Assembly: GCA_028698525.1 (NCBI GenBank)
Contig: JAQVDB010000008.1
Coordinates: forward strand, 1 to 44,578
Length of the DNA stretch: 44,578 nt
Direction of reading: 5' to 3'
From: Clostridia bacterium
Lineage (GTDB): Bacteria > Bacillota > Clostridia > JAQVDB01
Below, in pieces: positions 43,244 through 43,757 of the stretch (its first letter is position 1; every line of letters begins with the position of its first letter). Under the pieces are notes generated by a model, which saw only the letters and a program-made list of their open reading frames with translations, was not told where the DNA came from and did no database searches. A program made the translations under genes and the position numbers.

Positions 43244-43521
43244 ACTTATACTCCTCCAATCTACTTTTTAAATTAATAACTAAAACCCTCTCCCCATATT
43301 CAGCTAAATTTTATCTAGTATATTAAGCCCGCTTAAAATACGCAACTATTCCGTTTAATATTTATAATGCCTGCATTAAAAACAGGTAAGTAACTAAAAA
43401 CCATACCTCCTTTTTTAAAATATATACGCTCTGGAAACGCTAACATATTTATTTGATAATATCCCCAGAAAACTCATGATAAGATATTCCATATATATTT
43501 TATGAAATATTGTTGGTTAAC
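43244..43521. other. Leader-like stretch between riboswitch terminator and citrate synthase-like gene
   Basis: There are 278 bases without a convincing gene. Two tiny minus-strand frames exist: 20 codons starting MSFLGILSNK near 43476, and 23 codons starting MVFSYLPV near 43404. The latter's GGAGG touches its ATG. Neither resembles a known peptide. I do not see a consensus promoter, so the downstream enzyme may be read through from the riboswitch. Confidence 0.35.
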
Positions 43522-43567
43522 AAAAAAAGCGATATCACCTAACCCATAGGCAAAAACCGCTTTAAAG
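43522..43567 (-). terminator. Expression-platform terminator of the c-di-AMP riboswitch
   Basis: On the minus strand AAAGCG pairs with CGCTTT across a nested CCTA/TAGG stem and is followed by TTTTTTTG. It begins 7 bases after the aptamer, as expected for transcriptional control. Confidence 0.8.
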
Positions 43568-43573
43568 ACATAG

Positions 43574-43709
43574 ATACCCTTCCTTAAAGCTTCCGAGGTT
43601 AGCTGACGGATTCGGGTAGAAAGGAAACTAACCCTACCGGATAAAATCCGGATTCACCCCATTATATTGGTTCCCCCGTATCCTGCTTGTACAAAAGCAA
43701 GAATTCAGC
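43574..43709 (-). promoter_or_regulatory. Cyclic-di-AMP riboswitch (ydaO/yuaA type)
   Basis: Read on the minus strand, the conserved blocks appear in order: GATACGGGGGAACC, TGGGGTGAATCC, a variable stem CCGGATTTTATCCGG, GTAGGG, CCTTTCTACCCGAATCCGTC, AGCTAACCTCGGAAGC and TTAAGGAAGGG. This is the ydaO aptamer pattern. In known cases c-di-AMP binding promotes termination. The nearest downstream gene on this strand is the Re-citrate synthase-like enzyme. Confidence 0.93.
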
Positions 43710-43757
43710 ATTTATTTATTTAATTTTTACAATCAATATTTTAACTGTTTTTTCTAT

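Follow-up and report, generated by a model that had tools for sequence, protein, structure and literature searches.

The window, the whole stretch of 44,578 nucleotides that was analysed, is a complete contig (C8) of a 2.18-Mb genome of a Clostridia bacterium, assembled in 136 contigs and 97% complete. Near one end of it, a TetR gene (44372-43806, minus strand) is followed on the same strand by a promoter-like site, a c-di-AMP riboswitch and, after a long leader, a gene for a citrate synthase-type enzyme. The features of this region are as follows.

43786-43758, minus strand: promoter-like sequence TTGAAG-17-TATAAT, matching the consensus in 10 of 12 positions, with a predicted start near 43751; a consensus match only, which by itself does not speak for use
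43720-43573, minus strand: c-di-AMP (ydaO/yuaA) riboswitch aptamer, RF00379, full length
43590-43559, minus strand: antiterminator hairpin GCUUUAAGGA...UCUUUAAAGC, obtained by folding
43563-43522, minus strand: intrinsic terminator, with the hairpin AAAGCGGU...AUAUCGCUUU at 43563-43526 and a seven-T tract at 43528-43522; -14.8 kcal/mol
43521-43244, minus strand: untranslated leader of 278 nt from the terminator to the synthase gene, examined with the ORF list, promoter scans and tblastn
43243-41858, minus strand: Re-citrate-synthase-type DRE-TIM enzyme of 461 amino acids, the next ORF on the strand, with DTTFRDGQQ and HGHND motifs and a PF00682 match of 113 bits
41818-41788, minus strand: terminator-like inverted repeat GAAGAGTG...CACTCTTC with a weak T tail 3' of the synthase gene, read from the sequence

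Architecture of the riboswitch and its leader

The preliminary description of this DNA had recognized a ydaO aptamer with its own promoter and terminator. In agreement with this, an Rfam covariance search matched RF00379 at 43720-43573 of the minus strand with 102.3 bits (E 2.4e-23) over model positions 1-134 of 134, well above the gathering score of 38, and both a promoter-like site and a terminator were found, the latter having escaped the automated terminator scan because its hairpin (43563-43526) exceeds the limits of that scan. The 3' strand of the aptamer closing stem P1 ends in GGAAGC, and the 5' arm of the antiterminator starts on its last two bases (GC), the 3' arm of the antiterminator having AAAGC in common with the terminator. 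When the leader was folded without constraint, the antiterminator helix formed with a probability of about 0.99 and the terminator with one of about 0.006; when P1 was forced, the core of the terminator helix reached 0.8-1.0. Since the two hairpins are mutually exclusive and the balance between them shifts with P1 in silico, folding predicts that the riboswitch at 43720-43522 is an OFF switch. The fold of the window leader is moderately stable when compared with shuffled sequences (z -2.1). This expression platform, which couples P1 to the terminator, has a layout that is conserved in the relatives described below, most of which present an antiterminator-equivalent hairpin by folding, and the stems are built from other sequences, e.g. 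GCGGUUGCACCGUCCGGUGUGAUCGC (L117) and GCGAUUUUCACGUACACAGCGUGGCGAUCGC (L110).

As previously described, the last T of the terminator tract lies 278 nt from the ATG of the synthase gene, which is preceded by the Shine-Dalgarno sequence GGAGGAG at 43257-43251. The remark that the gene lacks an obvious promoter also held, because no minus-strand sigma-70-like match with a 17-nt spacing and up to 3 mismatches was found within 43244-43600, and a consensus scan of the 278-nt gap at spacings of 16-18 nt did not reveal a promoter-like site on that strand either. The gap contains a 23-codon ORF (43404-43333), one base from whose ATG lies a poorly spaced Shine-Dalgarno-like GGAGG (43410-43406), and this ORF may be a vestige, a leader peptide or a product of chance. 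Downstream of the synthase gene, the inverted repeat at 41818-41788 suggests a monocistronic unit.

The window also carries two ordinary regulatory RNAs, a T-box leader (34821-34598) before a 929-amino-acid ORF and a PyrR-binding element (28355-28255). A second c-di-AMP riboswitch of the genome (G000:C61 372-2121, L060) has a Si-citrate synthase gene on one side and, on the other, the gene that it precedes, which encodes an SH3/NlpC-P60 hydrolase, a target of the classic type.

Linkage of riboswitch, synthase and eam in relatives

Relatives were gathered from searches of related genomes and from one GTDB genome scan, and the resulting loci were analysed with Rfam. The proteins of the synthase clade are 73-85% identical to that of the window, and RF00379 is present upstream on the same strand in all 15 Bacillota clade loci having upstream sequence; these loci share descent, and they are to be counted as one conserved linkage in three layouts rather than as 15 independent events. 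The switch directly precedes the synthase gene in nine of them (the window, L093, L109, L110, L111, L115, L117, L118 and L120), including the closest relative (L109, 85% identical), and in L120 eam lies just after the synthase gene. The gene eam encodes glutamate 2,3-aminomutase, which synthesizes beta-glutamate, an osmoprotectant and compatible solute. The remaining six loci (L112, L114, L116, L119, L123 and L124) have eam between the switch and the synthase gene, arranged with the latter as one operon; L112 belongs to Thermoclostridium caenicola DSM 19027, and a sixteenth locus (G357), split over two contigs, fits the same switch-eam-synthase layout. In seven of the direct relatives the synthase ATG is found 70-98 nt past the aptamer with the terminator between them, so that no other gene fits there. 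The 278-nt gap of the window showed no convincing similarity to the corresponding stretches of the nearest relatives L109 and L116. Further variation was seen: in G097 the synthase gene and eam are each preceded by a switch of their own; G012 holds two synthases, a 73% identical copy behind switch and eam and a 62% identical copy elsewhere; and in L115 an isocitrate dehydrogenase gene and an eam gene (683 bits) follow the switch and synthase gene, with an ABC ATPase gene between.

A phylogenetic tree placed the switch-linked synthases and those of three switch-less Actinomycetota members in one group (SH-aLRT 99). The latter, from metagenome-assembled genomes (L121, L122 and L125), are 75-76% identical to the window protein and may have been acquired by horizontal transfer, and a c-di-AMP riboswitch was not detected at their loci. 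No linked riboswitch was observed among the matches listed for more distant homologues (57-68% identical), and an aptamer-core pattern scan of 83 outgroup loci gave no match, the same pattern missing 2 of 13 true aptamers.

The preliminary description had proposed a link from c-di-AMP to a citrate-forming enzyme, had suggested that the order of switch and synthase be compared in related genomes, and had held that another gene between them in relatives would speak against the link. The upstream position of the switch is indeed conserved throughout and the direct order in part. Another gene does intervene in six relatives, but this gene is eam, which shares the operon and is itself a recurrent target of the switch, and its presence therefore adds to the regulon and leaves the link intact. 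By these comparisons of gene order, the riboswitch-synthase link is well supported.

The same data bear on the possibility, already raised in the preliminary description, that the window riboswitch is an orphan that has lost its own target gene from the 278-nt gap. In this reading the missing gene would be eam, and the synthase gene would now have a start of its own or receive incidental read-through only. This would be in line with the switch-eam-synthase order of the sister locus in the tree (L116) and of five other relatives, and with a long gap that contains an apparently unused GGAGG. Nevertheless, tblastn with E values up to 100 recovered no eam remnant in the gap, and the absence of a promoter-like site mentioned above does not favor a separate start. 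Moreover, eight relatives have the direct linkage, which is therefore a normal state, and even if eam had been lost, read-through would reach a synthase gene that already belongs to the regulon. Loss of eam from the gap is possible, and the variable gene order within the clade does not allow its gain and loss at this locus to be told apart. Given a linkage present in every Bacillota clade locus with upstream sequence and the lack of room for a further gene in seven of them, we consider an orphan riboswitch unlikely.

The products of the riboswitch-linked eam genes matched TIGR04368 (glutamate 2,3-aminomutase) by far the best, and far better than lysine 2,3-aminomutase, with 613-641 bits; these scores are just under the cut-off of 650, and the proteins are therefore called Eam-like. 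When they were aligned to 2a5h, Lys and Asn were found in place of two Asp residues that we take to be the substrate lysine-binding residues of lysine 2,3-aminomutase. A survey of the class revealed a c-di-AMP switch upstream of at least 16 of 22 eam homologues at 65% identity or more (loci L092, L063, L102, L103, L201 and L202 are among those surveyed), and by these matches c-di-AMP riboswitches of this bacterial class repeatedly have eam-like genes as targets. One eam locus, L199 (G260:C36), presents a Na+ riboswitch (RF03071, 1006-1060) in tandem with a c-di-AMP riboswitch (1129-1326), with eam starting at about 1485. The window genome has its own eam on another contig (C48), whose product scored 684 bits and is thus above the TIGR04368 cut-off, and neither a c-di-AMP nor a Na+ riboswitch was found before it. 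Here, then, only the synthase, and with it citrate formation, would be under the switch.

The synthase and its likely product

The window protein has a DRE-TIM/HMGL-like (PF00682) fold, and its catalytic and metal motifs, TTFRDGQQ and HGHND, are invariant across the synthase clade. The window protein is related to homocitrate and isopropylmalate synthases but falls far under all equivalog cut-offs, including those of the citramalate models, with 156 bits against a cut-off of 463 for NifV and 139 against 485 for LEU1_arch; by these curated-model scores it is distinct from the NifV, LeuA and CimA equivalogs. Annotation of Re-citrate synthases as synthases of the homocitrate or isopropylmalate type is a known error (PMC12016533). 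Homologues 57-85% identical to the window protein were found, and in G024, G058, G027 and G260 the genes of homologues that are 60-64% identical are followed immediately by that for aconitase. Isocitrate dehydrogenase also adjoins many homologues; one or the other neighbor accompanies many that are 57-66% identical, an isocitrate dehydrogenase gene is more loosely associated with L115, L117 and L118, and neither gene is present at the window locus. In Clostridium acetobutylicum, CAC0970-0972 form a putative citrate synthase operon, and an aconitase mutant requires glutamate (PMC4383383). The label of a Re-citrate synthase-like enzyme, given in the preliminary description, is a fair one, backed by synteny.

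The window genome encodes aconitase, diadenylate cyclase, eam and an ordinary Si-citrate synthase. Among the eight clade genomes tested, aconitase and diadenylate cyclase were present in all, and a Si-citrate synthase was additionally present in seven, the window genome included, so that the window-type enzyme is probably an additional citrate synthase that has a particular task. The Si-citrate synthase also leaves room for a different substrate of the switch-linked enzyme, and the switch could then control the formation of homocitrate, citramalate, isopropylmalate or a new Claisen product, as might be read from the fact that the best curated models are homocitrate and isopropylmalate synthases and that most clade genomes already own a Si-citrate synthase. 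However, the scores against these models are far too low, the 60-64% identical homologues reproduce, immediately upstream of aconitase and in some cases with isocitrate dehydrogenase, the layout of the C. acetobutylicum operon, and in L115 a gene for isocitrate dehydrogenase follows downstream. A product other than citrate thus seems improbable.

Proposed role in osmolyte synthesis

Taken together, these results make it likely, in our judgment, that a second, Re-type citrate synthase serves osmolyte synthesis and is transcribed under the control of a c-di-AMP OFF riboswitch. We infer the following sequence of events. At high c-di-AMP, in K+-replete cells free of osmotic stress, the aptamer would close P1 and thereby occupy the 5' arm of the antiterminator, the terminator at 43563-43522 would form, and the synthase gene would not be transcribed. 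Low c-di-AMP is a sign of osmotic or K+ need. When c-di-AMP falls, the antiterminator would form and RNA polymerase would read across the 278-nt leader into the synthase gene, and the citrate produced would pass via aconitase and isocitrate dehydrogenase into 2-oxoglutarate and then into glutamate, the counter-ion of K+, which organisms with eam could turn into the compatible solute beta-glutamate. Several observations count against this reading, namely a window gap that is longer than that of most direct relatives, the eam gene at C48 without a detected c-di-AMP switch, the three Actinomycetota members without one, the scores of the linked Eam proteins just under the cut-off, the room that another citrate synthase leaves for a different substrate, and the shared descent of the 15 loci.

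The preliminary description had placed the link within central metabolism, by analogy with the control of pyruvate carboxylase and citrate accumulation in Listeria. Although c-di-AMP inhibits pyruvate carboxylase in Listeria and Lactococcus (PMC8822347), a general brake on citrate of this kind is doubtful here, because most clade genomes have a Si-citrate synthase besides, the gene that recurrently shares the switch is eam, isocitrate dehydrogenase lies nearby in one sub-clade, and the same report ties pyruvate carboxylase control to glutamate demand; these features argue instead for a role in the supply of glutamate or beta-glutamate as osmolytes.

The usual targets of c-di-AMP riboswitches belong to the transport of K+ and of amino acids, the remodelling of the cell wall and the osmotic response (PMC7266159). 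The window element resembles other ydaO/yuaA riboswitches in its aptamer, its two exclusive hairpins and its use of transcription termination, but its target, an enzyme of the citrate synthase type, is neither a transporter nor a wall enzyme. A closer precedent is the ablA gene (beta-lysine) of Dehalobacter, which is preceded by a Na+/c-di-AMP tandem riboswitch with c-di-AMP acting as an OFF signal in vitro, and eam is listed as a Na+ riboswitch target in the same work (PMC9337991). Both systems would place the synthesis of a beta-amino-acid osmolyte under c-di-AMP OFF control, as predicted for the window; nonetheless, the window locus lacks a Na+ aptamer and the controlled step is the entry of carbon as citrate, not the aminomutase. 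The two-input arrangement at L199 resembles that of ablA, but on eam.

Comparison with the Re-citrate synthases of C. acetobutylicum (CAC0970-0972), C. kluyveri and Heliomicrobium (HM1_2993) indicates the same enzyme superfamily, and the 60-64% identical homologues keep the aconitase and isocitrate dehydrogenase neighborhood, whereas in the window clade it has given way to a c-di-AMP switch upstream and often to eam as a partner, usually in genomes that also have a Si-citrate synthase. In other Firmicutes, c-di-AMP governs pyruvate carboxylase and thereby the supply of glutamate (PMC8822347), and in both cases the messenger would steer carbon toward oxaloacetate, citrate and glutamate, there at the protein level and here through a transcription-terminating RNA on a citrate synthase. 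No open-access paper joining a c-di-AMP riboswitch with a citrate synthase was found, and an earlier listing in the primary ydaO surveys (Nelson 2013, Block 2010), which lay outside the search, is possible. The riboswitch class is a known and ordinary one, and its target is unusual and conserved and appears to be unreported in the open-access literature searched.

With somewhat less assurance, leaning only slightly in its favor, we propose that a c-di-AMP riboswitch regulon dedicated to beta-glutamate exists in Clostridia, in which a second, Re-type citrate synthase and eam, together or behind switches of their own, would allow the messenger to gate at the RNA level both the entry of carbon and the step that commits it to an anionic osmolyte. 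The switch-eam-synthase operon of T. caenicola DSM 19027, a named strain, makes the idea directly testable. If the idea holds, c-di-AMP riboswitches would act not only on transport and wall remodelling but also on the provision of carbon for an osmolyte, a clade that curated models match best to homocitrate or isopropylmalate synthase would acquire a function, and the presence of two unrelated citrate synthases in some anaerobes would be explained.
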